A DNA stretch of 64,000 nt. Source: an uncultured Clostridia bacterium. Its GTDB lineage: Bacteria > Bacillota > Clostridia > Christensenellales > Borkfalkiaceae. Shown one piece after another: positions 31,453 to 44,897 of the stretch. Where the stretch lies: positions 58,251 to 122,250 of the forward strand of contig CALVWX010000001.1 of the NCBI GenBank assembly GCA_944368215.1, written 5' to 3'. Position 1 is the stretch's first letter. Each line of letters begins with the position of its first letter. A program made the translations under genes and the position numbers. The notes below the pieces were generated by a model. That model had not been told where the DNA came from and ran no database searches. It saw only the letters and a list, made by a program, of their open reading frames with translations.

Positions 31453-32439
31453 TTATTCAATCTCTGCGCGCATCGAATCCCACATATTGCGGGCCTTATG
31501 ATAGTTTTTAATTATCTCCGTCTGCTCGTCCTCGGTCAGTTGTCTGCCCCATATTACGGGGTCAACGGGCTTTTCGCTCTTGAGGTTGCCGTGGGCGAAG
31601 CGGGCGGTATGGTCACGGTATGTGTCGTTCCATTTATCGTACAGTGCGGGGTTTATATGGTTGCCCAGCGTGCAGTTGACAAAATCGCATTTGCCGAAGT
31701 CGCGCCAGGGCCTTGCAAGGTACACGCTGCCTTCTTTTGCGCCGCCGTTGACAAAATTGCAGTTTATAAAGGCATAACCGCGCTTCTGCTTCAGGCCGTG
31801 CGCGGGCGCGGCCACGTAGCCGTAGCCCCGTTTGTCGTGTCCAGAGATGAGTTGGCAATCATCGAAGTAGGCCTCGGCGCAACCGAAAATATAGTCTACG
31901 GTGCCGTATATGCGGCACTTCTCGTATATCTGAACGGAAGCGCCCTCCATATACAGCTGCTCTTTGGGTATAAACCCGTCGTAATATGCGGGGTCGTCCG
32001 TCAGTCCTGAATATCTTACCACAAGGTCGTCGGGGAAAGGGGAAGTGAAAAGGGTGTCCTGTTCGGATTTCAGGTCAATGTTTTTTGCGTAGAAGAGGGG
32101 GGCGTTGACGGAAAGCGCCACGCACTGACCGACCTTGCGCGCATCAATGTTGGAGTTTACCACGGTAAGGTTTTCCAGCGAGCATCCGTTTCCCGTCACG
32201 CAAAGCGTGTAAGTGCGGAAAGTATTGTACTCTCCGCCGTCAGAATGCGGCTTCCGGGCAAAATCATCCCATATAATAACCGTTGTTTCACGGTTTGCGC
32301 CTATAATTTTTATGTTGTCGCCTTTAATCCACAGTTTGTTGCGGTACTCGCCTTCAGCCAAATATATTGTGGTGGGACGGGTAATTTTATCCAATATCTT
32401 CTGTACGTCATCGCGCGGCGTAAGGTGTAAAATGTCCAT
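31453..32439 (-). CDS. Cytoplasmic pectin methylesterase (CE8)
   Basis: Removes methyl groups from pectic galacturonan. 328 residues of right-handed beta-helix. Catalytic residues are in the family motifs: Asp128 in EQDTLF, Asp182 in GTVDYIFG, and Arg243 in YLARPW (usually YLGRPW); GQCVAL supplies the Gln. No signal peptide is present, so it works inside the cell on imported oligomers. The ATG at 32439 has AAAGGAG 5 bases before it; the frame extends upstream to 32538 through the promoter and is not real there. Divergent from the ABC importer locus and sharing paired operators. Contrast the surface esterase at 57600. Confidence 0.92.
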   Translation of the reverse strand: MDILHLTPRDDVQKILDKITRPTTIYLAEGEYRNKLWIKGDNIKIIGANRETTVIIWDDFARKPHSDGGEYNTFRTYTLCVTGNGCSLENLTVVNSNIDARKVGQCVALSVNAPLFYAKNIDLKSEQDTLFTSPFPDDLVVRYSGLTDDPAYYDGFIPKEQLYMEGASVQIYEKCRIYGTVDYIFGCAEAYFDDCQLISGHDKRGYGYVAAPAHGLKQKRGYAFINCNFVNGGAKEGSVYLARPWRDFGKCDFVNCTLGNHINPALYDKWNDTYRDHTARFAHGNLKSEKPVDPVIWGRQLTEDEQTEIIKNYHKARNMWDSMRAEIE

Positions 32440-32609: not shown

Positions 32610-33299
32610 ATGCGAAAAAACGGTTCAAGGGAAATTACATTCAGCCAGTACCGCACGACCGATTTGTTCCTGTTCGCCGTAATAGTGGCTCTCGCGGAGC
32701 TGCTGGCGTTCGCGGCCACTGTCTGGTTTCCGGACGAAGCGATATTTTCATTCTCGTTCATGCTCCCTCTGGTGCTTATAATAATGATGCGCTGGGGCTG
32801 GCCGTCGGTATTTTATTCGATAGAAAGCGCAATAATTTACTGCGCGCTCCACTCGCTTACGTGTGAGTTTTATCTTTCTTATGTGGTCGGCAACGCGGCG
32901 ATTGTGCTGACGCTTATCTATCTTCTCCCTGTGGGGAAGGAGAGGGTGTCAAAAAGCTGGTATCTGTCGGTCGTCATGGTTATAACCGGCTGGGCGCTGC
33001 AGGTTTTCGTCCGTTCGGGCATGATGGTTGCGACCGGATTGAGCAATTTTGTCACCGCGCTCGCATATCTGTGCGGCATAACATCGGACAGCGGATTGCT
33101 GTCGCTGGTTATGGGTGTCATAGCCGTTCTCGTCGTTCGCAAGTTCGACGGACTGTTCGAAGACCAGAAAGCATACCTAATCCGTATCGGCAAGATGCGC
33201 GAAGAAAAACGCAGGGTGGACACGTTCGGCGAACAGCTCGAGGAAATCGACGAAGAAAATCTTTCGATCCTCAATCAGGACAACGACGATCTGTATTAA
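32610..33299 (+). CDS. Hypothetical membrane protein, first gene of the pectin importer locus
   Basis: Not recognised. 229 residues with five or six hydrophobic helices between about residues 18 and 175, and a charged cytoplasmic tail of 50 residues (KMREEKRRVDTFGEQLEEIDEEN). Short loops and the RWGWPSVFYSIESAIIYC segment recall substrate-binding (S) components of ECF importers, but the resemblance is weak. The ATG at 32610 has no Shine-Dalgarno sequence; a stop codon lies 4 codons upstream in frame, so no earlier start exists. First gene after the divergent promoter, 176 bases before the permeases. Could be a partner of the importer or a separate vitamin-type transporter component. Confidence 0.72.
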   Translation: MRKNGSREITFSQYRTTDLFLFAVIVALAELLAFAATVWFPDEAIFSFSFMLPLVLIIMMRWGWPSVFYSIESAIIYCALHSLTCEFYLSYVVGNAAIVLTLIYLLPVGKERVSKSWYLSVVMVITGWALQVFVRSGMMVATGLSNFVTALAYLCGITSDSGLLSLVMGVIAVLVVRKFDGLFEDQKAYLIRIGKMREEKRRVDTFGEQLEEIDEENLSILNQDNDDLY

Positions 33300-33475
33300 T
33301 CGTTACATATAATATTGGTGCGGACAAACCTGCACCTGACGGAAACTCATTTTCACCTGTCCGGCGTCGGGCGGGCTTGCCGCCTCAAACGGCAAACAAT
33401 CAAAAGGGTAATAACGACGGAAAAGTCGTTTACAATCAATCTTACATTATAAAATTATGGTAATGGAGGGATATA

Positions 33476-34564
33476 ATGCAGTTGTTCAAACTCAAATGCG
33501 ACGACTTCCTTGAGTATGACGAATCGAACGGCACATATCATATGCCGGCCGAGCAGCAGGTCAGGGACGAAGCCGAAAAGACGCATTGGAAAGAAGTCGG
33601 GTTCACGCTGTTGAAAGACTGGCGCCTGTACCTCATGCTCGTTCCCATGCTCCTCGTTTATCTGTTATGGCGCTACATGCCCATGACGGAGCTTCTGTCG
33701 GCATTCAAGGATCAGTACACGCCCGGAGCTGCCGGTGATTCCAGTTTATATGACTGGTACGGACTCACAAACTTTGATGCGCTCTTTTTCGGAGCTCAAT
33801 CTTCGTTGTTCTGGTCTGCGTTCAGAAACACGTTCGTAATCGCGTTCTACGGCCTTTTGTTCGGCTTCCCGTTTCCGATTATACTTGCGCTGTTTTTTAA
33901 CGAAGTTAAGTCTAACATCACGCGAAGCATACTTCAGGTTTGCGTATACTTACCTAAGTTCATGTCGACGGTTATTATAACTACGCTCGCAATCGTTCTT
34001 TTCCGCGGACCTCTTGATCCTGCGGTAAGTGATGACGGTATAGGAATTCTTAGCCAGCTTATGCTTGCTATCTTCCCTTCGGATGAACTTTATTCGGCGG
34101 CTACCGGTTCAAGCGGCGGTTTGGTAATGTCCAACTCATACTTCAGAGCGTTATATCAGATATCGGGTATCTGGGAGCACGGCGGCTATGATTCGATTGT
34201 ATTCTTCGCGGCGGTCATCGCCGTGTCGCCTACGTCATACGAGGCGGCGCAGATTGACGGTGCGGGCAAGATGCAGCAGATGCGCTACGTCGTTCTGCCC
34301 AGCATACTTTCGACGGTCGTCATAATGCTTATTATGAAAGTGGGCACGTTGCTCTCCGTCGGTTACGAAAAGGTATACCTGATGACTTCTACTACAAACT
34401 ATGAGGCCGGACGAATCGTAGCAACTCTATCCAACGAATGGGCTACTCAGGGCAATACGTCAATGGGTATTGCGGCGGAGATGACCAACAACCTCATCGG
34501 TATGATTCTGGTCATCGGCGCGAATGCGATTGCTCGCAAAGCTACAGATGTATCGCTGTATTAA
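33476..34564 (+). CDS. Sugar ABC transporter permease, LplB/YteP type
   Basis: First of two inner-membrane permeases of an oligosaccharide importer. 362 residues, longer than the usual 290-320 because of a charged N-terminal extension of about 45 residues. Six helices follow; the ATPase-coupling EAA loop is SPTSYEAAQIDGAGKMQQMRYVVLP in the second half. This family handles aldouronate, rhamnogalacturonan and alginate oligomers in known systems. GGAGGG precedes the ATG. The 176-base gap before it contains a CGGACA/TGTCCG inverted pair (33323 and 33358 regions) but no clear promoter. Followed 15 bases later by its partner permease. Confidence 0.9.
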   Translation: MQLFKLKCDDFLEYDESNGTYHMPAEQQVRDEAEKTHWKEVGFTLLKDWRLYLMLVPMLLVYLLWRYMPMTELLSAFKDQYTPGAAGDSSLYDWYGLTNFDALFFGAQSSLFWSAFRNTFVIAFYGLLFGFPFPIILALFFNEVKSNITRSILQVCVYLPKFMSTVIITTLAIVLFRGPLDPAVSDDGIGILSQLMLAIFPSDELYSAATGSSGGLVMSNSYFRALYQISGIWEHGGYDSIVFFAAVIAVSPTSYEAAQIDGAGKMQQMRYVVLPSILSTVVIMLIMKVGTLLSVGYEKVYLMTSTTNYEAGRIVATLSNEWATQGNTSMGIAAEMTNNLIGMILVIGANAIARKATDVSLY

Positions 34565-34579
34565 GGAGGATATTTAATT

Positions 34580-35539
34580 ATGAAAAGAAAAATGGAAATA
34601 TCCGAATTAATATTCAAGATTATTTCGTACGTATTCCTGATAGTATTTGCCGTAATGTGCATTTATCCGTTTATTTATGCGATAAGCTCATCGTTCAGCA
34701 TTACTTCGGCTGTTGACGGCGGCGATGTCGTTCTCTGGCCCGTCGGCTTTCAGACTCAGGCGTACAGATATATATTTACGAATAATACATTCTGGATTTC
34801 TTATGCAAATACGCTGTTTATGGCATTCGTAGGTACCTTATGGTGCATGATTTATACCATGATGGGCGCATATGCTCTCTCCAAGAAAAGGCTAATGGGT
34901 AGAAGAGCGCTTAACTTCTTCCTCGTTTTCACGATGTGGTTCTCGGCAGGCATTGTGCCTCAGTTGCTCAACTATCAGAGAACGGGTGACATACTTGCAA
35001 GCATACTTGCTCCCGGCACCACCCATAGTCAGGCAGAATACGACCAGAAATGGTTGATCATTCTCGCTATGGGTATGAATGCTCAGAACGTCATTCTTTT
35101 AAGAAACGCCTTTGAAGGTGTTCCCGCCGAAATCGAAGAGGCGGCAAGAATAGACGGTGCTACCGAAATGCAGGTTCTATTTAAAGTTTACATCCCCATG
35201 AGCAAGGCAACGATTGCAACGGTTGCTCTGTTCTTCGGAATATCTCGTTGGAACGGTTATTTCTGGGCGATGAGGATGATGCAGAACCAAGAATATTCCT
35301 GGCCTGTTCAGGTTTACATCCGAGATTTCATTGACGCGCACTCGGGACTTATTCAAACGCCTGAAGACGGTGCAACTTGGGCTGAAATTATTCCCAACGA
35401 CTATGATATCAATCAGGTTTCGGCAATGTCTGTCGTTTATGCAATGGTCATCTGTGCAGTTATCCCCATCCTTTGCATCTATCCTTTCATTCAGAAGTAT
35501 TTCGCAAAGGGCGTCAATATGGGCGGCGTAAAGGAATAA
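34580..35539 (+). CDS. Sugar ABC transporter permease, YtcP type
   Basis: Second permease of the importer, 319 residues, six helices. The coupling loop is VPAEIEEAARIDGATEMQVLFKVYIPMSKATIATVALF (given here as the region about residues 180-220), a classic EAA motif, and the chain ends QKYFAKGVNMGGVKE, common in the YtcP/CarB family. TAAGGAGG is 9 bases before the ATG. Works as a heterodimer with the preceding gene product (family knowledge); the binding protein follows 138 bases later. Confidence 0.91.
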   Translation: MKRKMEISELIFKIISYVFLIVFAVMCIYPFIYAISSSFSITSAVDGGDVVLWPVGFQTQAYRYIFTNNTFWISYANTLFMAFVGTLWCMIYTMMGAYALSKKRLMGRRALNFFLVFTMWFSAGIVPQLLNYQRTGDILASILAPGTTHSQAEYDQKWLIILAMGMNAQNVILLRNAFEGVPAEIEEAARIDGATEMQVLFKVYIPMSKATIATVALFFGISRWNGYFWAMRMMQNQEYSWPVQVYIRDFIDAHSGLIQTPEDGATWAEIIPNDYDINQVSAMSVVYAMVICAVIPILCIYPFIQKYFAKGVNMGGVKE

Positions 35540-35677
35540 TATTTAAATTTTCAAGCAATCTGTACTTTTGTGCAGGGCAAATCTTTGTGCGGCCAAGCGT
35601 TCCCGCGGGTGCATAAAGCTATAAAGGGGCGGGAGCGAAGCAATGCAAAAATTTAAATTAAAATAAGGAGAAATATA

Positions 35678-38236
35678 ATGAACAAATCCAAGAAACTTGC
35701 CATTGCTGCCGTTTCGGTTGTTATGGCGGGAGCTATGATTCTTCCCATGGCTGCTTGCGGCGGGGATGAACAGACATATGTTCCCAATGTTGACGGTCTT
35801 GAAGAAGGATATGTTCCCAGCTTCACCGAAGACGGCAAGCTTAACTACACTGAAGGTACTCACATCAGGATGAACGTAGGTTACTATAACAAGAACAATC
35901 CTGCGAGAATGACTTTCAATGAAGACGAACTTAGACAGAATGTTACTTTGCCTGACGGCAATCAGTATTCGTCCGGTTCGCTTAAACCCGCATGGGCAGC
36001 TGCACAGGCTGAGCTCGGTGTTGTATTTGACGACGTGTTCCAGAACAAGAGCAACGATGAACAGCTCAGCAATCCTATTCAGACCGGGACGATGGGCGAT
36101 TATGACCTTATTACTTCGTCGGCTGCGGCAATGACCCAGAACACCGATAACCTTCTCAACGTAACGCCTTATTTGGACTATATGCCCAACTATAAGAACT
36201 TCCTTGAGAGCAGCCCCGCACTATATTATTCGTTGACTTCTGATACAAGTAATGGTGCTATGTATTATTTGCCTTACTTCGACGGCTTCAACGATATCGA
36301 AAAATATGCGCTTGCCGAGAAGACTTGGATAAAGGATGTTCTTAATGCGACTGATACAGAGCTTGCTACTGTAACGACGACTTTCGCGCAGCAGGGCGCG
36401 GCTAAAGGTAATCAGGTTGATGCAACAAAGGCTTCCGTAAAATCTTACATGGGTACTACGGGCAGCTGGGAAGTTGATACAACCTCTGCAGACGGTAATT
36501 CGGTTGTAAAGGCTAAGGTTGACTATAGTGCGGCTTTGGCTGCGGCGACTAGCGCATCTGCTCCTCTCGGCGCTGCTTATCAGGCTGCCGTAGGTTCAAC
36601 ATATTCCGGTACCAGCGGCAATATTGTTGATATTATGGGCGCTGCTATTGATGCAACTGATGGCGATATCACCGGCGGTGAGCTTACAAAGATGCTCCAG
36701 GCATACATCGATGTAGCTTACACGCTCAACGGACAGGCGTATGCAAATCGTGCAGATGTATTCAACAGCGTTTCCGGCGCATGGGACGTAGACCTTATGG
36801 TAGCCCTTATGCGTTGCGTTGTTTCCTCACCTGTTCTTATCGATGAAAGTGCTGATAACATCGGCAACCTCTACGGTCTTGCCGGTCGTCAGGGAACAAC
36901 CCAGCGCCGTGTCGACATTACAGCTATGGCGGGCGAGCTTTACGGCATCCGCGGTATGGAATCCCGTTATGAGTATACCTACCTCAATGAAGACGGCGAT
37001 CTTGTAGATTCCCGTGAAAATGCAGAGAGCTATGATCTTATTTCTAACTTTGCTGCTCTTACCGATGAAGGCTTGCTCTATATAGGTGAAACTAACGTGC
37101 AGGGCAATCGTGATACCTCCAAGGGTCCTTCGCCTTTGTTCATGCATGATTATTCGCAGACTCAGACAACTTCAGGCTACGGCGATGAAACTTATAATGT
37201 AGCACCCATTGTTACCCCTGTATCAAAGTGGGATACAGATGACGACGGTTCGCATGAAACTATCATGAGATTTACCGAATCCTGGCGTTCCGTTAAGAAT
37301 ACCGGTTTCTGCATCTCTAAAGCAGGCGTGGCTAATAATCCCGAAAGATTATCTGCAGTTCTCGCATTTATCGACTATCTGTTCTCAAACGACGGACAGA
37401 TCGTTATGACCTATGGTGCACAGTCGACGAACGGCAACACCGATCCCAATGGTTGGTGGTATGCGGATAAGGCGGAAGGCGTTTCCCTTGAAGACGTAGC
37501 AGTTCAGGTTTCGTCTACAACCTCCGACGGACAGACCAATTACTCCGACCAGTGGACTATCAAGCCCGAATACGAAACTCAGTACTTCGTATATAAGAAC
37601 GAAGTTTACAAAGGAATGGTAGATTATATCAGAGCTATTCCTAAGCTTACCGATGATACTCTCGCGCTTTTCGATGGCGATGAAGTAAACGGATTCAAGC
37701 TCGGTAACAGCGCTCAGACCAATCAGACCGCCGGACACTCATATACCAACTTTGCTCGTTATATCATGGGTGCAACCTTCCCCATCGGTAACAAGGATCA
37801 GGGCTTCGAATATCAGTGCACTGCGCAGTGCGCTCTCGATGGTGCAGGTATTGTTTCGCAGGCTCTTGCAAACGGTACTATCCAGCACGTAACCCTTTCG
37901 CTGTCTGAAGGACAGTCGATGTGGTACATGATTGCGCCTACGTCGCTTGCTCTTGACAGCAACCAGCAGGCTACGCTTCGTGACGATGCTCAGGTTCTTA
38001 TCTCCGGTACGTACTTCCTCAACAGCTCTTCTACCGATCAGAGATCTAACGTCTACATCGATATCGCATTCTATGGCCTTGGTTCCGGCATCCAGTACAG
38101 CGGCACGACCCAGACAATTCATTCTACTGGCGCTGAGGTTGTAACATGGCTCAACAATGCCGGCATGCAGGCTCGTGCAAACATCTTCTCCTCAGCATGG
38201 GAACAGACAGCTATTTTCTTCGACCTCTATCAGTAA
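35678..38236 (+). CDS. Very large extracellular sugar-binding lipoprotein
   Basis: Substrate-binding protein of the importer. 852 residues; LplA/YtcQ-type relatives are usually about 500-560. A signal peptide with lipobox ends at Cys27 (LPMAACGG), so it is tethered outside the membrane. The middle (about residues 220-360) has an Ala/Ser/Thr-rich stretch, suggesting an inserted domain. WWYADKAEG, a Trp/Tyr-rich surface and a long C-terminal beta-like region follow. A leader of 138 bases carries ATTTAAATTTT and AAAAATTTAAAT arms that can pair. AAGGAG precedes the ATG. A hairpin right after the stop (38270) may set the ratio to downstream genes. Likely ligand is a pectic oligosaccharide (inference). 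Confidence 0.88.
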   Translation: MNKSKKLAIAAVSVVMAGAMILPMAACGGDEQTYVPNVDGLEEGYVPSFTEDGKLNYTEGTHIRMNVGYYNKNNPARMTFNEDELRQNVTLPDGNQYSSGSLKPAWAAAQAELGVVFDDVFQNKSNDEQLSNPIQTGTMGDYDLITSSAAAMTQNTDNLLNVTPYLDYMPNYKNFLESSPALYYSLTSDTSNGAMYYLPYFDGFNDIEKYALAEKTWIKDVLNATDTELATVTTTFAQQGAAKGNQVDATKASVKSYMGTTGSWEVDTTSADGNSVVKAKVDYSAALAAATSASAPLGAAYQAAVGSTYSGTSGNIVDIMGAAIDATDGDITGGELTKMLQAYIDVAYTLNGQAYANRADVFNSVSGAWDVDLMVALMRCVVSSPVLIDESADNIGNLYGLAGRQGTTQRRVDITAMAGELYGIRGMESRYEYTYLNEDGDLVDSRENAESYDLISNFAALTDEGLLYIGETNVQGNRDTSKGPSPLFMHDYSQTQTTSGYGDETYNVAPIVTPVSKWDTDDDGSHETIMRFTESWRSVKNTGFCISKAGVANNPERLSAVLAFIDYLFSNDGQIVMTYGAQSTNGNTDPNGWWYADKAEGVSLEDVAVQVSSTTSDGQTNYSDQWTIKPEYETQYFVYKNEVYKGMVDYIRAIPKLTDDTLALFDGDEVNGFKLGNSAQTNQTAGHSYTNFARYIMGATFPIGNKDQGFEYQCTAQCALDGAGIVSQALANGTIQHVTLSLSEGQSMWYMIAPTSLALDSNQQATLRDDAQVLISGTYFLNSSSTDQRSNVYIDIAFYGLGSGIQYSGTTQTIHSTGAEVVTWLNNAGMQARANIFSSAWEQTAIFFDLYQ

Positions 38237-38269
38237 TGCAGAATGCATGACAATGCATTGAATTAACTA

Positions 38270-38315
38270 ATTTTACTCTCCGTCCCGTCATAGGGCGGGA
38301 CGGAGAAAGTAAAAT
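38270..38315 (+). terminator. Strong hairpin after the binding-protein gene
   Basis: ATTTTACT plus CTCCGTCCCG (38270-38287) pairs with CGGGACGGAG and AAGTAAAAT (38296-38315), with one unpaired A. It may act as a partial terminator or as a 3' stabiliser that raises the binding-protein message over the downstream genes. Confidence 0.7.
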
Positions 38316-38379
38316 TATCTTATCTTCCAATATTCTCCCCGTGCGAGGGGAAAGCAAAAAACGATTGGGGAATTTGATA

Positions 38380-39042
38380 ATGAAAACTCAAATTAAATTT
38401 CAAAAAAGGCTTGCTTTAATAACGTTAATCGTTGCGGCGCTGGCATTTATATTTGCTATCTGCTTTTTTAGCGGAAATCTCTCTGATGTCATGTCGTATA
38501 GGTTATCGCTCTACAGGGAGTCATACAGCTCGCGCGTCGAAGTCAACGGACAGTTGCAGGTTGTTACAGCGATAACAGCTAATATAATTGGCGATGTAAA
38601 TGATTGGATTTTGTCGGCGCAGGCTATTGATAAAGCCATGGTCACCATGACGATAATTTTCTTTGTGGTTATTGCCTTCATCTATATTACTTGCACCAAT
38701 TCAAGGCGCAATTATTATATCACAAACTATGTAATGACCGGCGTAGTCGTTGTTTATGCGGTAGCGTTGGCACTCTTCGGAATCATTTCTATGATTGTGC
38801 TTATGAACGGTTTTATGAACCTTCAGTTTACCAGCGATTCTATTGAATTTCAGGTTCTTAACAGTAGCGCAAACTTTCCAGAAGTAACATATTCGCCTCT
38901 TATGTTTATACTTGGCATTGTAGCTTTTCTTTTGGTGTTGCTTGTTGCACTTGCCTGGATATATAATTTAATATGGAAAACGAAGCTCATGAAGGGAGAG
39001 CAGGAGCTTCTCTCCAAGGGTTATGTAAAGGAGGTAGCTTAA
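38380..39042 (+). CDS. Hypothetical four-helix membrane protein A of the importer locus
   Basis: Not recognised. 220 residues. A hydrophobic helix at about 14-32 is followed by an exposed loop of about 50 residues (YRLSLYRESYSSRVEVNG), then helices at about 86-106 and 118-142, a second polar loop of about 40 residues, and a last helix near 180-205 with a basic tail. The start is the ATG at 38380 with GGGGA 9 bases before; earlier in-frame codons belong to the leader. Only 2 bases separate it from the next gene, and AAGGAGG at its 3' end is that gene's ribosome site. It sits between the binding protein and the ATPase, so a role in the transporter is likely. Confidence 0.75.
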   Translation: MKTQIKFQKRLALITLIVAALAFIFAICFFSGNLSDVMSYRLSLYRESYSSRVEVNGQLQVVTAITANIIGDVNDWILSAQAIDKAMVTMTIIFFVVIAFIYITCTNSRRNYYITNYVMTGVVVVYAVALALFGIISMIVLMNGFMNLQFTSDSIEFQVLNSSANFPEVTYSPLMFILGIVAFLLVLLVALAWIYNLIWKTKLMKGEQELLSKGYVKEVA

Positions 39043-39044
39043 TT

Positions 39045-39644
39045 ATGGATAACACTACGTTGTTACAAAGAGATACTTTCCGATATAAAAAGAATAAATT
39101 GCCTGCAAACCTTGCGTTGCTTGGTCTTGCATTTAACTGTCTTTATTTCTGCTTGTTGTATGGCATAAAGGTTTCGGCCTTTGGCGATGGAACTATAACT
39201 TGGTTTTCTAATATTCTCATTGGCGGTTCTGTCATTCTTACGCTTGTAATGTTGTTAACAAACTTCCTCGCTAGCGAGGGTATCAAGGGCTATAAAAAGA
39301 ACTATTGCATAGTTCTTCTCGTGCTTGCAGTAATCCAGATTGTCCGCATATTCATCTATCCTCTCTATGTGTTCCAGTATGAAGATTTTAACGTAACGTA
39401 TTTTTGGATACGCAACGGCGGCCACATTTTTATGGGCATCATGATGGTAATTTGGCTTTGTGCTTCGGCTGCATGCCTTATTGCATCTGCAGTTCTCGGC
39501 TACATTAATTGCAAGATGCTCGAAAATCATATGGCTGCCCTTGAAAAAGGTGAAATAAATATGGATGAGCATTTTGCTGAAGCCAAAAGAGAAATGCTTG
39601 GCGGTAGTGACGATGGTAGTTCCATTGTAAGCGAGGAGGTTTGA
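39045..39644 (+). CDS. Hypothetical four-helix membrane protein B of the importer locus
   Basis: Not recognised. 199 residues. Helices at about 20-40, 54-76, 86-107 and 127-152, short loops (one with FQYEDFNVTYFWIRNGG), and a charged C-terminal cytoplasmic tail (MLENHMAALEKGEINMDEH). It is one base upstream of the ATPase gene start and 2 bases after membrane protein A, so all three should be translated together. AAGGAGG lies 10 bases before the ATG. Function unknown; a scaffold or extra subunit of the importer is a reasonable guess. Confidence 0.75.
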   Translation: MDNTTLLQRDTFRYKKNKLPANLALLGLAFNCLYFCLLYGIKVSAFGDGTITWFSNILIGGSVILTLVMLLTNFLASEGIKGYKKNYCIVLLVLAVIQIVRIFIYPLYVFQYEDFNVTYFWIRNGGHIFMGIMMVIWLCASAACLIASAVLGYINCKMLENHMAALEKGEINMDEHFAEAKREMLGGSDDGSSIVSEEV

Positions 39645-39645
39645 T

Positions 39646-40731
39646 ATGCCCGAAGTAACTATCAGACATTTAGATAAAATCTACGACGGCGGTGTTCAAG
39701 CTGTTTGGGATTTCAACCTCGACGTTAAAGATGGTGAATTTATAGTTCTTGTCGGACCCTCCGGTTGCGGCAAGTCTACAACGCTTCGTATGATAGCCGG
39801 TCTCGAGGATATCACGAAAGGCGATCTTATCATCGATGGAAAAGATTGCACACGTCTTGCGCCCAAGGACAGAGATATCGCTATGGTTTTCCAGAACTAT
39901 GCTCTTTACGGGCATATGACCATTTACGAAAACATGGCTTTCTCCTTAACGCTTCGCAAGGAAGATAAACTTGTCATTCACCGCAAAGTTATGGCTGCAG
40001 CTGAAATCCTTGACCTCAAGACTCAGCTCAACAAAAAACCTAAGCAGTTGTCCGGTGGTCAGCGTCAGCGTGTCGCAATCGGTCGTGCTATAGTTCGTAA
40101 TCCCAAGGTCTTCCTTTTCGATGAACCTCTCTCTAACCTCGATGCAAAACTTCGCGGTTCGATGAGGCGTGAGCTTATGCTTCTCCATAAAAAGCTCAAT
40201 GCTACTATTATATACGTTACGCATGACCAAACTGAAGCCTTGACGCTTGCCGACAGAATAGTCTGCATGTCAATGGGACACATTCAGCAGATAGGTAAGC
40301 CTATTGACCTTTATGAACATCCCGCCAACACATTTGTTGCTACATTCATAGGGCTTCCTCCAATGAATTTGTTCGACGGCAAAATTGAAAACGGATATTT
40401 CGTCGGTGATCTCTTCGACTATCCGCTCAATGAAGATCAGAAGCGGGTACTTGCCGATTATGAAGGCAAGGAAGTAATTCTCGGCGTTCGACCCGAAAAT
40501 TTCACTCGCGACGGGCATATTAAGTTCAACATAACAAATAATGAAAACCTCGGTATGAACACTCTTGTTCATGGTAAAGTAGAGGGGAAGAAAATTGTTG
40601 TGTGCAAGTTTGCTGAATGGTGCAATTATAAGTACGGCGATATTATTAACCTTGGATTCCAAGAAGATAAAATGCATTTCTTCGAAAAGGATCCCGAAGG
40701 CAGACACGAATATCAGAAGGTTATCAAATAA
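39646..40731 (+). CDS. ABC transporter ATP-binding protein (MsmX/UgpC type), pectin importer
   Basis: Dedicated ATPase of the importer. 361 residues. Walker A GPSGCGKST, Q-loop MVFQNYALYGH, signature LSGGQRQRV, Walker B FLFDEPLSNLD, switch THDQTEAL. The C-terminal regulatory domain starts near residue 240 (GVRPENFTRDGH). The product aligns along its length with the protein at 25324, yet the DNA is markedly lower in G+C: one 60-base row of matching sequence has 26 G+C here and 34 there. One base separates it from membrane protein B. GAGGAGG precedes the ATG. Confidence 0.93.
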   Translation: MPEVTIRHLDKIYDGGVQAVWDFNLDVKDGEFIVLVGPSGCGKSTTLRMIAGLEDITKGDLIIDGKDCTRLAPKDRDIAMVFQNYALYGHMTIYENMAFSLTLRKEDKLVIHRKVMAAAEILDLKTQLNKKPKQLSGGQRQRVAIGRAIVRNPKVFLFDEPLSNLDAKLRGSMRRELMLLHKKLNATIIYVTHDQTEALTLADRIVCMSMGHIQQIGKPIDLYEHPANTFVATFIGLPPMNLFDGKIENGYFVGDLFDYPLNEDQKRVLADYEGKEVILGVRPENFTRDGHIKFNITNNENLGMNTLVHGKVEGKKIVVCKFAEWCNYKYGDIINLGFQEDKMHFFEKDPEGRHEYQKVIK

Positions 40732-40745
40732 GGAGGTAAGGTTTT

Positions 40746-41390
40746 ATGGCTGAAAATGAAAACATTGTTGTAAATGAAATGCCTCCCGAAGAACAACCTC
40801 AGGAAAGTAAAGGGAAACAGATTCTTCGCAAAATAGGAGCAGGGCTTAAGGAATGGGGGCGTAAGCAGATAGTTGTTTTAAAACGCTACCCTCATCGCAT
40901 ACCCTTATTAGTAACTGTATTGACATCTGTGCTTTGGTTGCTTTGGCTGTTTACGTTTTCACGTGCCGCGTACGCGCTTTCCGGTGTCAATACGCTGGGG
41001 TTGATAATTTTCATTTCAACTCTTTTGTCTATACTTATTTTGCCGCTCTTCCTTAATGCATTTCCTAAGCGCAAGAAGCCAAATGTCATATTTATTGTAA
41101 TGGTATTTGTCTTCATTGCAGCACTTATAGTATTTGATGTTTTATATTATACATTGGCATATGACTTCCTTTATGTGCAAGGCGGACAAACTGCAGCGTG
41201 GATTAATGAAAGACCTTTTATAGGTAGTTCATTTACGCTCGCAATCGTTCATATCGTTTTCCTGTGCTTAAGTGCTCTTTCTCTGGCACTTCTCCCTGTT
41301 TATACACCGTTAATCAGGAAGATAAACACCAGTAAGGAAATTAATGTTACCGATATTCATGAGACTATTGATGTTGAGGATGACGAGTAA
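40746..41390 (+). CDS. Hypothetical four-helix membrane protein C of the importer locus
   Basis: Not recognised. 214 residues. A charged cytoplasmic N-terminus of about 50 residues (acidic, then basic LKEWGRKQIVVLKRYPHR), helices at about 52-73, 80-103, 113-136 and 160-184, and an acidic tail (IHETIDVEDDE). TAAGGAGG is 8 bases before the ATG; the gap to the ATPase is 14 bases. A terminator-like hairpin follows at 41416, so later genes may be expressed at a lower level. Function unknown. Confidence 0.74.
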   Translation: MAENENIVVNEMPPEEQPQESKGKQILRKIGAGLKEWGRKQIVVLKRYPHRIPLLVTVLTSVLWLLWLFTFSRAAYALSGVNTLGLIIFISTLLSILILPLFLNAFPKRKKPNVIFIVMVFVFIAALIVFDVLYYTLAYDFLYVQGGQTAAWINERPFIGSSFTLAIVHIVFLCLSALSLALLPVYTPLIRKINTSKEINVTDIHETIDVEDDE

Positions 41391-41415
41391 AATATTAATT
41401 TAACAAAATAAAGTC

Positions 41416-41450
41416 AATAACCGACAAAATTTTATTTTGTCGGTTATTTT
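41416..41450 (+). terminator. Intra-operon hairpin terminator
   Basis: Perfect 15-bp stem AATAACCGACAAAAT (41416-41430) with its complement (41434-41448), three-base loop, followed by TTCC. It sits between membrane proteins C and D, 14 bases before the next start. Confidence 0.72.
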
Positions 41451-41464
41451 CCTAAAAGGGTAAA

Positions 41465-42178
41465 ATGTCCAAGAAAAAGAAAAAACAAGAAAAAGAAACA
41501 ACAATAGAAAACTTTTATGACCTTAAGGTAAATGAGGTAGATGAGCTTGTATCGATATTGAAAGGCGACGAAACTTCGTCGGAGAAAGAGATCACTACCG
41601 ATATAAAAGAGATTACGGGTGAAGAAGTCAAGGGTAAAAGTGAGCGTGCAAAAAATTTTGATCCCTACAAGCGCGATAAACTTGCCATGTTGCCCACGTG
41701 GCTCAAGGCAATATTTATAAAATGGTGGTTTGCCGGTTGCGTTTGCTACTTCATTATGTGGGGTCTTGGCGAGCTTTTAACTAACGAATTTGACTTCGTC
41801 CGTGCCATATTTTTAGGCCTGATAATGGGTATGGTGGTAGATCTTCTAGTCAATCCTTCTTTTCGTTATCTCGACTCAGACAGGAAAGAATACGATAACT
41901 ACATGATGTTTCCGTTTCCGTTCAAGCAGTTTTGGACTTTTTTCGCCAATATGATTTATTATGTCATTGTTGTGGTGATAGTTTATATTTCATATAGGGG
42001 ACTAAATCAGCTTATTATGCTTGCCAACGACGATTGGTTTGTGGGCGTTGAGCCGCTGCTCTTCGGTACTATCTGCGTTATAATCGATATGGCCTTTATT
42101 GGCATAAAAGACTTAATTGTTTATCTTGTGAAGAGACATAAAAATAAAAAGAGGGAGGAGGTTAATCCCGATGTTTAA
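41465..42178 (+). CDS. Hypothetical membrane protein D of the importer locus
   Basis: Not recognised. 237 residues. A very basic start (MSKKKKKQEKE), an acidic soluble segment of about 65 residues, then hydrophobic helices at about 82-104, 112-132, 160-180 and 196-220 and a basic tail. Conserved-looking internal features are WWFAGCVCYFIMWGLGEL and FPFPFKQFWTFFANM. Its 3' end overlaps the GH28 gene by 8 bases, so its translation is coupled to an enzyme that should act on imported material. The only ribosome site is AAAAGGG close to the ATG. Role unknown. Confidence 0.74.
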   Translation: MSKKKKKQEKETTIENFYDLKVNEVDELVSILKGDETSSEKEITTDIKEITGEEVKGKSERAKNFDPYKRDKLAMLPTWLKAIFIKWWFAGCVCYFIMWGLGELLTNEFDFVRAIFLGLIMGMVVDLLVNPSFRYLDSDRKEYDNYMMFPFPFKQFWTFFANMIYYVIVVVIVYISYRGLNQLIMLANDDWFVGVEPLLFGTICVIIDMAFIGIKDLIVYLVKRHKNKKREEVNPDV

Positions 42179-43709
42179 GCAATTGTTTATTTCAAGCGTG
42201 TCCGCTTGCTTCGAACTTGAAAACAAGAACCCTTATTACAGCCCCGAAAAATACACCGTCAGCTTAAACGGCGATGTCGTTGAAGAGAAGGAAAGCAATG
42301 TTTTTTCGCTCTTTAATCTCACGCCCGATACGGAATATACAGTAAAAGTTTCGTGCTGCAAAAGCGAACTCAAATTCAGAACGCTTGCGGAGAGCGGTTG
42401 CATCAATGTAAAGGATTTGGGCGCCAAGGGCGACGGCGTCTCCGACGACACATATTATGTCCAGATGGCCATCGACAGCTGCCCCAAAAACGGCCGCGTC
42501 GTTATTCCCGAAGGCTCTTTTTACGTTCGCCCCATAGTGCTTAAGAGCGACATCACGCTCGAAATCAAAAAGGGCGGCGAGCTTCTCGGCGATGTAGTCG
42601 AAGAGCATTACCCTTATGTGCCCGCAAAAATCGAACACGACGACGGCACGGAGGAAATTCTCGCTACGTGGGAGGGCAATCCCTATCCCTGCCACCAGTC
42701 CTTCGTTTCGGCATATAAGCAGAGCAATATAAAAATTGTCGGCGAAGGCGCCATAAACGGCAACGCCGATAAATCCACATGGTGGGCAACGCCCAAGGGC
42801 AGAGCTGTAGCCCGTCCCCGCCTCGTTACGCTCAACAAGTGCGAAAATGTTGTAATGCACGGCGTGACGTGCAAAAATTCGGCGGCGTGGAATCTGCACC
42901 CCTTCTTCTCGAAAAATCTCGGATTCTTCGACCTTCGCGTCAGCAACCCGTATACAGGCCCTAATACCGACGGTCTTGACCCGGAAAGCTGCGATAAGGT
43001 AGATATTATCGGCTGTATTTTCTCCGTCGGCGACGACTGTGTCGCAATCAAAGCCGGTAAGATATATATTGGCAGTAAATATAAAACGCCAGCCAGCCGC
43101 CATACACTGCGTAACAATCTCTTCCGCGACGGCCACGGTGCAATAGTGCTGGGCAGCGAAATTTCGGGCGGCGTAAAGGACTTAACCGTCTGCCAGTGCG
43201 TTTTCAGGCATACCGACAGGGGCTTGAGAATAAAATCGCGCAGGGGCAGGGGCAAGTATTCGGTCATTGACGGCGTGCTCTTTGAAAATATAAAGATGAT
43301 TAACGTCATCACGCCTCTCGTAATCAATATGTATTATTTCTGCGACCCCGACGGCCACACCGAATACGTCTGGTCGCGCGAAAAGCGCCCCGTCGGAGAC
43401 GACACCCCTTATATGGGCAGGTTTGTATTCAAGGACATTGAATGCACCGAGTGCGAGTGCATGTGTGCATATTTCGACGGCCTCGTCGAACAGCCCGTAA
43501 AGGAAATCGTGCTCGAAAACGTCTCCTTCTCCTTCAAACAGGACGCAAAGCCCTTTAAGCCCGCCATGCTTGATTTTGTCCGCGAGTATTGCAAGGAGGG
43601 CATATATATAGACAACGTTGAAAAAGTTGTGCTCAAAAACGTCACGTTCGACGGAGTCGACGGACCCACAATCATTCAGAAAAACTGCGGCAAAATCATT
43701 GTCGAATAA
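42171..43709 (+). CDS. Cytoplasmic glycoside hydrolase family 28 (polygalacturonase-like)
   Basis: Hydrolyses alpha-1,4 bonds of galacturonan oligomers. 512 residues. Residues about 1-72 look like a fibronectin-III-type beta domain (TPDTEYTVKV), followed by a right-handed beta-helix beginning INVKDLGAKGDG. Catalytic motifs are intact: NTDG (265-268), GDD (287-289), GHG (321-323) and RIK (353-355). No signal peptide, so it is intracellular, as in exo-acting GH28 enzymes of gut bacteria. GGGAGGAGG precedes the ATG, which lies within the previous gene. GH105 follows 12 bases later. G+C returns to the window's normal level here. Confidence 0.94.
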   Translation: MFKQLFISSVSACFELENKNPYYSPEKYTVSLNGDVVEEKESNVFSLFNLTPDTEYTVKVSCCKSELKFRTLAESGCINVKDLGAKGDGVSDDTYYVQMAIDSCPKNGRVVIPEGSFYVRPIVLKSDITLEIKKGGELLGDVVEEHYPYVPAKIEHDDGTEEILATWEGNPYPCHQSFVSAYKQSNIKIVGEGAINGNADKSTWWATPKGRAVARPRLVTLNKCENVVMHGVTCKNSAAWNLHPFFSKNLGFFDLRVSNPYTGPNTDGLDPESCDKVDIIGCIFSVGDDCVAIKAGKIYIGSKYKTPASRHTLRNNLFRDGHGAIVLGSEISGGVKDLTVCQCVFRHTDRGLRIKSRRGRGKYSVIDGVLFENIKMINVITPLVINMYYFCDPDGHTEYVWSREKRPVGDDTPYMGRFVFKDIECTECECMCAYFDGLVEQPVKEIVLENVSFSFKQDAKPFKPAMLDFVREYCKEGIYIDNVEKVVLKNVTFDGVDGPTIIQKNCGKIIVE

Positions 43710-43721
43710 GGGAGAGAAAAT

Positions 43722-44849
43722 ATGGATTATACGCTCATCGACAGATATATAGACAGGCTTATCGAGGATACCAAGCCCGAGGCCCCTATATGGAACATAG
43801 AAAATATCCGCCACGGCAAGCCGCCCGCATGGAACTATATTGACGGCTGCATGATGACTTCGCTCTATTCCATCTATCAGAGCACGGGCGACAAAAAATA
43901 TCTCGATTTCATCGAAAATTTTGTTGATTACTACGTCTTTGACGACGGAAGCATACGCGGATATGAGCTTGGAACGTACAACCTCGACAACATAAACGAG
44001 GGCAGAATTCTATTTGACCTCTACAAAGAGACGGGCAAGGAAAAATATAACAAAGCCATAGAGCTTCTGCACAAACAGCTCGAAGGCCAGCCCAGAATTG
44101 CAATCGGCAACTTCTGGCACAAAAAAATCTACCCCAATCAGGTCTGGCTGGACGGCCTGTATATGGCTCAGGTTTTCAGCACGCGCTACGCGGGCGAACG
44201 CGCCGACGGCGATTATTCCGACGTCGTCAACCAGTTCACCAACGTGTTCGAAAACATGTACGACAAGCAGAAGAGGCTTTACTATCACGGCTGGGATTAT
44301 TCAAAGCAGGCATTTTGGGCGGACAAGCAGACGGGTCTTTCCAAGTCCTTCTGGCTACGCGCCGACGGCTGGTACACGGTCGGTCTCGTCGATGCCATAG
44401 GCTATGTGCGCGACGATGAGGCAAAGGCAAAACTTTCAGAAATTTTCCGCACAACTATTGAGGGTCTCGAGCAGTATATAGACCCCGTCGGGCACATGTT
44501 CTATCAGGTAATCGATCAGGGCGGAAGGCAGGGCAACTACCTCGAAACTTCGGGGTCTGCCATGATTTCCTACGCAATGATGAAGGGCGCGCGACTCGGC
44601 ATACTCGATAAGCGCTTCGCAAAAGTCGGCAAGCAGGTATTTGACGGGATATGCAATAAATATCTGAGCGAGCGCGACGGCAAGCTCAACCTCGGCGGCA
44701 TATGCCTCGTTGCAGGCCTCGGTCCCGAAAACAACCGCCGCCGCGACGGTACGTTCGAATATTACATATCCGAACCCGTTGTAGAGAACGACGCGAAGGG
44801 CACGGGTCCGTTCGTCATGGCATATACAGAGGTCAAGCGTTTAATTTAA
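43722..44849 (+). CDS. Glycoside hydrolase family 105, unsaturated galacturonyl hydrolase
   Basis: Removes the unsaturated uronic acid from the non-reducing end of pectin or rhamnogalacturonan fragments in the cytoplasm, producing the KduI substrate. 375 residues of (alpha/alpha)6 barrel, normal length. The catalytic Asp144 is in VWLDGLYMA, corresponding to the reference YteR Asp143. Other family marks are WLRADGWY and ETSGSAMISYAM. No signal peptide. GGGAGAG precedes the ATG. Last gene of the importer locus, ended by the terminator at 44863. Confidence 0.94.
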   Translation: MDYTLIDRYIDRLIEDTKPEAPIWNIENIRHGKPPAWNYIDGCMMTSLYSIYQSTGDKKYLDFIENFVDYYVFDDGSIRGYELGTYNLDNINEGRILFDLYKETGKEKYNKAIELLHKQLEGQPRIAIGNFWHKKIYPNQVWLDGLYMAQVFSTRYAGERADGDYSDVVNQFTNVFENMYDKQKRLYYHGWDYSKQAFWADKQTGLSKSFWLRADGWYTVGLVDAIGYVRDDEAKAKLSEIFRTTIEGLEQYIDPVGHMFYQVIDQGGRQGNYLETSGSAMISYAMMKGARLGILDKRFAKVGKQVFDGICNKYLSERDGKLNLGGICLVAGLGPENNRRRDGTFEYYISEPVVENDAKGTGPFVMAYTEVKRLI

Positions 44850-44862
44850 TGTAAAAAAAGTA

Positions 44863-44897
44863 GAGCGGCGCCGACTTTCAGTCGGCGCCGCTCTTTT
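44863..44897 (+). terminator. Terminator of the pectin importer locus
   Basis: Perfect 14-bp stem GAGCGGCGCCGACT (44863-44876) with its complement (44880-44893), loop TTC, followed by TTTTC. Confidence 0.9.

Follow-up and report, generated by a model that had tools for sequence, protein, structure and literature searches.

A pectin-linked LplB/YtcP-type importer locus encoding five putative auxiliary membrane subunits

Introduction

In the textbook account, a type I sugar importer is assembled from two permeases, two ATPases and one binding protein, and members of the small membrane family DUF624 (YesL/YteU) are found beside those of the LplB/YtcP kind. Here we analyse positions 32610–44849 of a 64,000-nucleotide stretch of DNA from an uncultured Clostridia bacterium (contig CALVWX010000001.1; the stretch is hereafter the window), which encode such an importer together with five further membrane proteins, A to E. 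Two described systems lie closest to it. AlgM1-AlgM2/AlgS-AlgS with AlgQ2 from Sphingomonas sp. A1 contains the closest solved relatives of both permeases and has an acidic polysaccharide as its substrate class; the available portion of PMC5717064 gives this alginate importer four transporter subunits and a binding protein. YtcQP-YteP with MsmX from Bacillus subtilis resembles our locus in permease naming and ATPase type. In the accessible text of PMC5730181 it comprises one binding protein, a pair of permeases and MsmX, and growth tests there show that it serves for the uptake of polygalacturonan and rhamnogalacturonan; the excerpt of PMC11466899 gives the system as MsmX2-YtcQP-YteP only.

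Unlike the alginate importer, the module described here has an 852-residue putative solute-binding lipoprotein (SBP) without a PDB match and five further membrane proteins. It also differs from importers accompanied by DUF624, an identity that we considered for A–E and rejected: A–E of the window gave no match to PF04854, and neither did anything else in the host genome (1.67 Mb in 46 contigs). Among open-licence PMC papers, judged by titles and the opening lines of abstracts, no published description of such an importer was found.

Gene order and co-occurrence

We think it likely that A–E serve in the membrane as auxiliary subunits dedicated to one ATP-binding cassette (ABC) importer of type I, which would consist of LplB-YtcP-MsmX2 plus the large lipoprotein and take up acidic pectin oligomers. 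Gene order and co-occurrence are the grounds for assigning them to it, and genomics gives good support to the view that they form parts of the importer's system, whereas the shape of the complex and the purpose of A–E are what we infer. In agreement with the original prediction, eleven genes follow one another in the order A, LplB, YtcP, SBP, B, C, MsmX, D, E, GH28 and GH105, and all eleven open reading frames (ORFs) are open at their predicted positions on the forward strand.

The arrangement was followed through samples of genus relatives, order, class and phylum, which overlap in genomes. An orthologue of YtcP (64–76% identity) occurs in 20 of the 24 other genomes of the genus, one of them cut at a contig end, and is absent from the remaining four; wherever the contigs reach, the genes of the 20 fetched loci follow an identical order. 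Across the order, a profile of protein E matched 18 of 297 genomes, ten of which lie outside the genus in families f4, f11, f18 and f19. All ten carry LplB-YtcP-SBP-B-C-MsmX-D-E, and nine carry A as well. Protein A matched 17 of the 297 genomes, which is the protein E set minus G103, and two genus genomes in this sample lack A, B and E alike. Protein B gave 22 matches, namely the same 18 genomes strongly and four others (G066, G137, G210 and G249) at E-values of 3e-4 to 8e-4; two of these four have internal stops, the other two correspond to loci L122 and L123 (see below), and we judged all four to be chance or very remote. Protein C matched 11 of 200 genomes. Ten of these matches are strong and fall within the 18, and the eleventh (G155, 8.9e-4, internal stops) was likewise judged chance or very remote.

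When the surroundings were read in all 18 genomes, and in one outside the order, B–E were found woven into the importer in a single order, as was A in all but one. In the order sample every strong match to A, B, C or E thus lies in such an importer locus, as expected if the extra proteins are part of the importer. The contrary outcome, that these membrane proteins would turn up mostly without sugar importers, was looked for and is not what the genomes show, two weak B matches being without an importer. Beyond the order, protein E was found in four of 391 genomes of the class sample, two of them outside the order: G622 carries the whole block plus GH28, and G574 carries MsmX-D-E-GH28 on a 3 kb contig. 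The phylum sample gave one match in 398, the window's own genome. Of the 41 loci that were tabulated, 38 encode the full set of nine importer proteins; a contig end truncates L048 and L058, and L087 is without A. Since dozens of genomes preserve this order despite a mean identity of A–E of only 39–56% within the genus, the layout is beyond chance.

A phylogenetic tree of YtcP separated 41 module sequences (40 loci and the window) from 20 other permeases with a branch support of 100/100, several of the outside branches being long and flagged as such by the tool. In 14 other LplB/YtcP-type loci, picked from many further matches of the YtcP search, none of A–E was detected at an E-value of 1e-3 throughout the fetched stretches, three of which are short (L141, 8.8 kb; L143, 6.0 kb; L151, 3.4 kb). 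Where visible, the binding proteins of these control loci mostly have 520–605 residues. Together, the clade split and the control loci free of A–E tie these proteins to one permease clade and not to such importers generally.

Four LplB/YtcP-type loci of the window's genus also have a small four-helix protein, of 227–233 residues, just after the SBP gene (L147, 9342–10025; L149, 10590–11270; L152, 10386–11084; L154, 7952–8632). Unlike the module, they encode one extra protein and not five, and it has no Pfam match. Profile alignment with hhalign, built on these four sequences only, showed no kinship to A–E. GH32 enzyme genes adjoin L147, the only one of the four scanned for enzymes.

Divergence and a distant copy of the system

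Within the genus, mean identity falls from MsmX (0.85), GH105 (0.78) and GH28 (0.74) through YtcP (0.69), LplB (0.68) and E (0.56) to A and C (0.45 each), SBP (0.42), D (0.41) and B (0.39). These values come from the window and 27 loci, with L048, L058, L087 and L088 outside the set and with the fused GH28 of L046 and the duplicated D of L079 dropped. Pairwise distances of the accessory proteins correlated with those of LplB/YtcP at r = 0.48/0.42 for A, 0.60/0.62 for B, 0.72/0.69 for C, 0.74/0.69 for D and 0.69/0.56 for E. Correlations of A–E with GH28/GH105 were lower (r = 0.03–0.33), though all lie in one operon. The divergence of A–E thus seems to track the permeases, which is suggestive and no stronger than that, because the permease–enzyme correlations are themselves weak and the pairs are not independent.

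The most divergent arrangement is L087 (genome G103, contig C17, 1746–12724), which reads LplB-YtcP-SBP-B-C-MsmX-D-E without A. A wider profile recovered its proteins E, C and B at 1e-17, 1e-11 and 3e-10, respectively. Its D scored 0.29 with the genus profile and 0.0016 with a wider profile built without L087, and its identification rests mostly on its place. Downstream lie a DUF4962/alginate-lyase-like gene, a heparinase II/III-like gene and a short-chain dehydrogenase/reductase (SDR) gene; given the lyase-like and heparinase-like genes, the substrate here is likely another uronate polymer. This copy, which the original prediction did not foresee, indicates that pectin itself is no requirement for having the additional subunits.

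These comparisons bear on a different reading, in which A–E share a transcript with the importer yet assemble into a membrane complex of their own, serving a linked need such as by-product export or ion balance during polyanion import, and leave the permeases untouched. Such a complex would sit well with a possible contact between D and E (see below), and with the ORF table of the 41 loci, which contains no fusion of any of A–E to a permease. The gene order speaks for closer integration, as in the loci that were read C and D flank MsmX, and A and B flank the permeases. So do the single permease clade, the divergence of the accessory proteins in step with the permeases, and the retention of B–E in L087 beside different enzymes. 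We consider a separate complex unlikely.

Permeases, ATPase and probable binding lipoprotein

Pfam and NCBIfam place LplB (33476–34564) and YtcP (34580–35539) among the binding-protein-dependent permeases, and the two are homologous permeases of the AlgM1M2/LplB-YtcP type. Their closest sequence relatives in the PDB are AlgM1 for LplB (E-value 1.7e-48) and AlgM2 for YtcP (9.4e-67). LplB begins with a conserved extension in which a VRDxxE motif is found in 37 of 40 module sequences; the extension was not seen, by eye, in 12 LplB proteins from outside the module. A conserved motif at the N-terminus of protein E was recovered in 36 of 40 sequences by a loose expression, which missed L121 though its N-terminus reads YYNLK. 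Both motifs are missing in L080, L086 and L087, and since these three loci form the earliest branches of the module clade (moderately supported), the motifs may reflect a single gain.

MsmX (39646–40731) scores 456 bits against the NCBIfam UgpC model (cut-off 432), which makes it an ATPase of the MsmX/UgpC/MalK type; MsmX and GH105 are each named by just one of Pfam and NCBIfam. The SBP (35678–38236) is a probable binding lipoprotein by its lipobox and its constant place beside YtcP; Pfam, NCBIfam and the PDB gave no match.

Protein A

Protein A (32610–33299) has about six hydrophobic helices by hydropathy and, in most genus members, a C-terminal tail that is absent from the alignment rows outside the genus. 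An AlphaFold2 model from 30 alignment rows reached a predicted local distance difference test score (pLDDT) of 87.3 and a predicted template-modelling score (pTM) of 0.80. When the model was compared with the PDB using Foldseek, the top eight matches were all S-components of energy-coupling factor (ECF) transporters (ThiT, RibU, BioY and FolT), with E-values of 0.23–1.4, probabilities up to 1.00 and target-normalised TM-scores up to 0.66. This resemblance goes beyond what had been predicted from the sequence.

Unlike the S-components RibU, ThiT, BioY and FolT, whose six-helix fold its predicted structure resembles, A is encoded within a type I importer and shows no profile kinship to them. No ECF model was among the 14 Pfam families matched by the 30 members of A, and hhalign against 30 PF12822 proteins gave a probability of 1.2%, with nothing above background. 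The AxxxA docking motif of helix 1 is not conserved: it was found in 11 of 30 members in any register and in nine of 30 in the best single register, compared with 19 of 30 within the first 32 residues in the PF12822 control set. No EcfT or EcfA is among the named genes of the module, although no search was directed at EcfT, and an EcfT is expected elsewhere in the genome, which carries PF12822 S-components of its own.

According to the available text of PMC11109136, S-components share about 15% identity among themselves, so that the missing sequence kinship leaves a common origin possible. The same text ascribes the fold to sensor kinases (receptors) and MreD too, and since it is common to all of these, fold alone cannot separate them. 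Protein A is therefore described here as S-component-like in its predicted fold, but is not called an S-component.

It could still be a free-standing vitamin S-component or a sensor that merely happens to be sited in the operon. The fold itself, its use in receptors and MreD (PMC11109136, as far as the available part goes) and the genome's own PF12822 S-components would suit that idea. It is hard to reconcile with the finding that the importer is present in every one of the 17 genomes (of 297) that encode A, and with the unconserved AxxxA and the absence of a profile match to S-components, and we regard it as very improbable.

Proteins B to E

Hydropathy indicates four helices each for B (38380–39042), C (39045–39644), D (40746–41390) and E (41465–42178). 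The starts of B and C were corrected by alignment, that of B to 38380 from a GTG at 38341, and C begins with a conserved RYKKNK. By the positive-inside rule, the charge pattern would fit a location of both termini on the inner side, least clearly for B.

The five proteins, called unknown in the original prediction, all fall below every Pfam and NCBIfam cut-off, and scanning the individual members of A, E and B against Pfam returned scattered weak families only. Matches to TgpA_N in members of B (13 of 33, best 8.5e-4) and in D of the window (17.9 bits, cut-off 30), and to a CD20-like family in two of 33 B members (best 6.3e-6), were set aside as apparently generic helix matches. Mutual paralogy was also considered and rejected: hhalign probabilities were at most 8% for B-C, B-D, C-D, A-E and D-E and did not exceed 5.7% when A was paired with B, C, D or E, although the profiles were shallow, so that kinship is not shown rather than disproved.

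D and E, which lie in one frame in 17 loci, were modelled as a joined chain, using L003 read through its intervening stops and an alignment of 16 paired and 30 single rows from which L088 was left out. AlphaFold2 returned a pLDDT of 78.9 and a pTM of 0.62; the linker was disordered, as was a large part of the N-terminus of E. A rough model of pTM expects about 0.40 for an unplaced pair and about 0.62 for a pair placed within 5–6 Å, and the prediction thus hints at contact between D and E. Foldseek matched the model to generic helix bundles and, weakly, to tetraspans (TARP and synaptogyrin), none with an E-value below 0.3. In L079 (10536–11570), a single ORF with eight predicted helices contains two copies of D in tandem.

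Enzymes and likely substrate

A pectinesterase homologue (CE8; PF01095, 102 bits, cut-off 27) without a signal peptide lies on the reverse strand at 31453–32439, divergent from the importer genes, and beyond it, upstream of A, lies UxaC. The longest ORF reaches 32538, and many relatives begin at residue 34 of this long ORF. The gene adjoins A divergently in 32 of 42 fetched stretches, other families and G622 included; a 33rd homologue, in L084, is not adjacent to A, and the region is outside the fetched stretch in L048, L058 and L089.

GH28 (42171–43709; Pfam and NCBIfam), of polygalacturonase type, and the last enzyme (43722–44849), matched by the Pfam Glyco_hydro_88 (GH88/105) model and taken by us to be GH105, had been predicted to lack signal peptides, and inspection by eye of the N-termini of eight GH28 and seven GH105 relatives agrees. 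The host genome also encodes three PL1-type genes. Two of these ORFs have lipoprotein-like signal peptides, and one of the two carries a CBM77 domain; the third begins beyond the fetched stretch. Pectinesterase, UxaC, GH28, GH105 and the PL1 genes, one bearing CBM77, would fit an importer of oligogalacturonides that are unsaturated and in part methyl-esterified, and whose breakdown is completed in the cell.

This enzyme set raises a second alternative, that A–E and the N-terminal extension of LplB form mainly a cytosolic docking platform that passes chains to pectinesterase, GH28 and GH105 (a metabolon). The conserved would-be cytosolic motifs of LplB and E, the C-terminal tail of A in most genus members and the co-encoded enzymes without signal peptides are all in keeping with such a platform. 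Yet within the genus A–E diverge poorly in step with GH28/GH105, L087, L081 and L084 retain B–E with different or fewer enzymes, and the tail of A is absent outside the genus. A docking platform accordingly seems improbable to us.

Other arrangements of the enzymes were also seen. In L046 (3023–5719) GH28 and GH105 are naturally fused into a protein of 898 residues, and the host genome has a second GH28 gene, in L001 (genome G000, contig C8, 1153–2673), also without a signal peptide.

Proposed mechanism

Of the roles considered, a collar in the membrane that serves long acidic chains seems to us more probable than either the separate complex or the enzyme platform. Cell-surface pectate lyase lipoproteins would cut pectin, the 852-residue lipoprotein would bind the resulting (methyl-esterified) oligogalacturonides, and LplB/YtcP/MsmX would import them, after which pectinesterase, GH28 and GH105 would finish the chains inside. 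D and E may pair, A would act as a subunit with the S-component fold, and B–E, set around the permease, would most likely hold, gate or extend a path for long polyanionic chains in the membrane and at its cytosolic face. The idea of long chains is strengthened by AlgM1 and AlgM2 as the closest solved relatives of the permeases, by the oversized lipoprotein and by the signal-less pectinesterase gene at 32 of 42 loci.

Several points weigh against this proposal. Contact of A–E with the permease is likely in our view but no firmer than that, and the 41 loci show no fusion to a permease. YtcQP-YteP of B. subtilis is described without such subunits in the available portion of PMC5730181, so they are not needed for this chemistry. 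A is lacking in L087, and A–E evolve fast (39–56% identity, like the SBP at 42%, compared with 68–69% for the permeases). GH28/GH105 and permease distances correlate at only r = 0.25–0.36, and the contrast in correlations may thus reflect a property of the enzymes rather than of A–E. The genome-scale profile searches covered A, B, C and E, while D is known from reading loci. Finally, L122 (9249–9863) and L123 (9250–9972) encode four-helix proteins that are weakly B-like (7e-6 and 1.5e-5 on a small rescoring), with no importer in the fetched stretch.

A bolder version of the collar would recognise a nine-protein class of ABC importer, in which the permease pair is wrapped by the four tetraspan proteins B–E and A was added in the pectin lineage. 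The collar would convert an importer of oligosaccharides into one through which long acidic chains are threaded, and A, taken over from ECF-type transport, would move or gate; this version we hold to be doubtful. That one permease clade retains four to five additional membrane proteins in several families, and also outside a single order, suggests that at least one branch of these importers is built differently. The locus offers a defined gene set for purification, and it is relevant to the uptake of long acidic polymers from plants by Gram-positive bacteria of the gut. Were A confirmed, the S-component fold would have a further use besides ECF transporters, sensor kinases and MreD, the settings named in the available part of PMC11109136.

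Transcription signals and further ATPase genes

The distances between consecutive genes from A to GH105 are 176, 15, 138, 143, 2, 1, 14, 74, −8 and 12 nucleotides. The divergent promoter that had been proposed upstream of A amounts to no more than an intergenic gap; the region has 29 promoter-like matches, close to the mean of 22.7 ± 4.8 after shuffling. The single terminator is borne out: a strong terminator-like stem of 15 pairs, 11 of them G-C, follows GH105 at 44862–44894 on the forward strand. A further hairpin, which had gone unmentioned, lies in the gap between SBP and B (38268–38317, forward strand). This gap folds below −15 kcal/mol in 40 of 41 loci. A hairpin 3′ of the binding-protein gene is usual in operons that overproduce this protein.

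Six genomes from outside the genus have another gene for an MsmX-like ATPase (50–57% identity) near the module (L081, 6354–7430; L082, 3322–4398; L083, 11721–12875; L084, 7838–8944; L085, 5085–6251; L121, 7741–8820), and the product in L081 has MalK-type domains.

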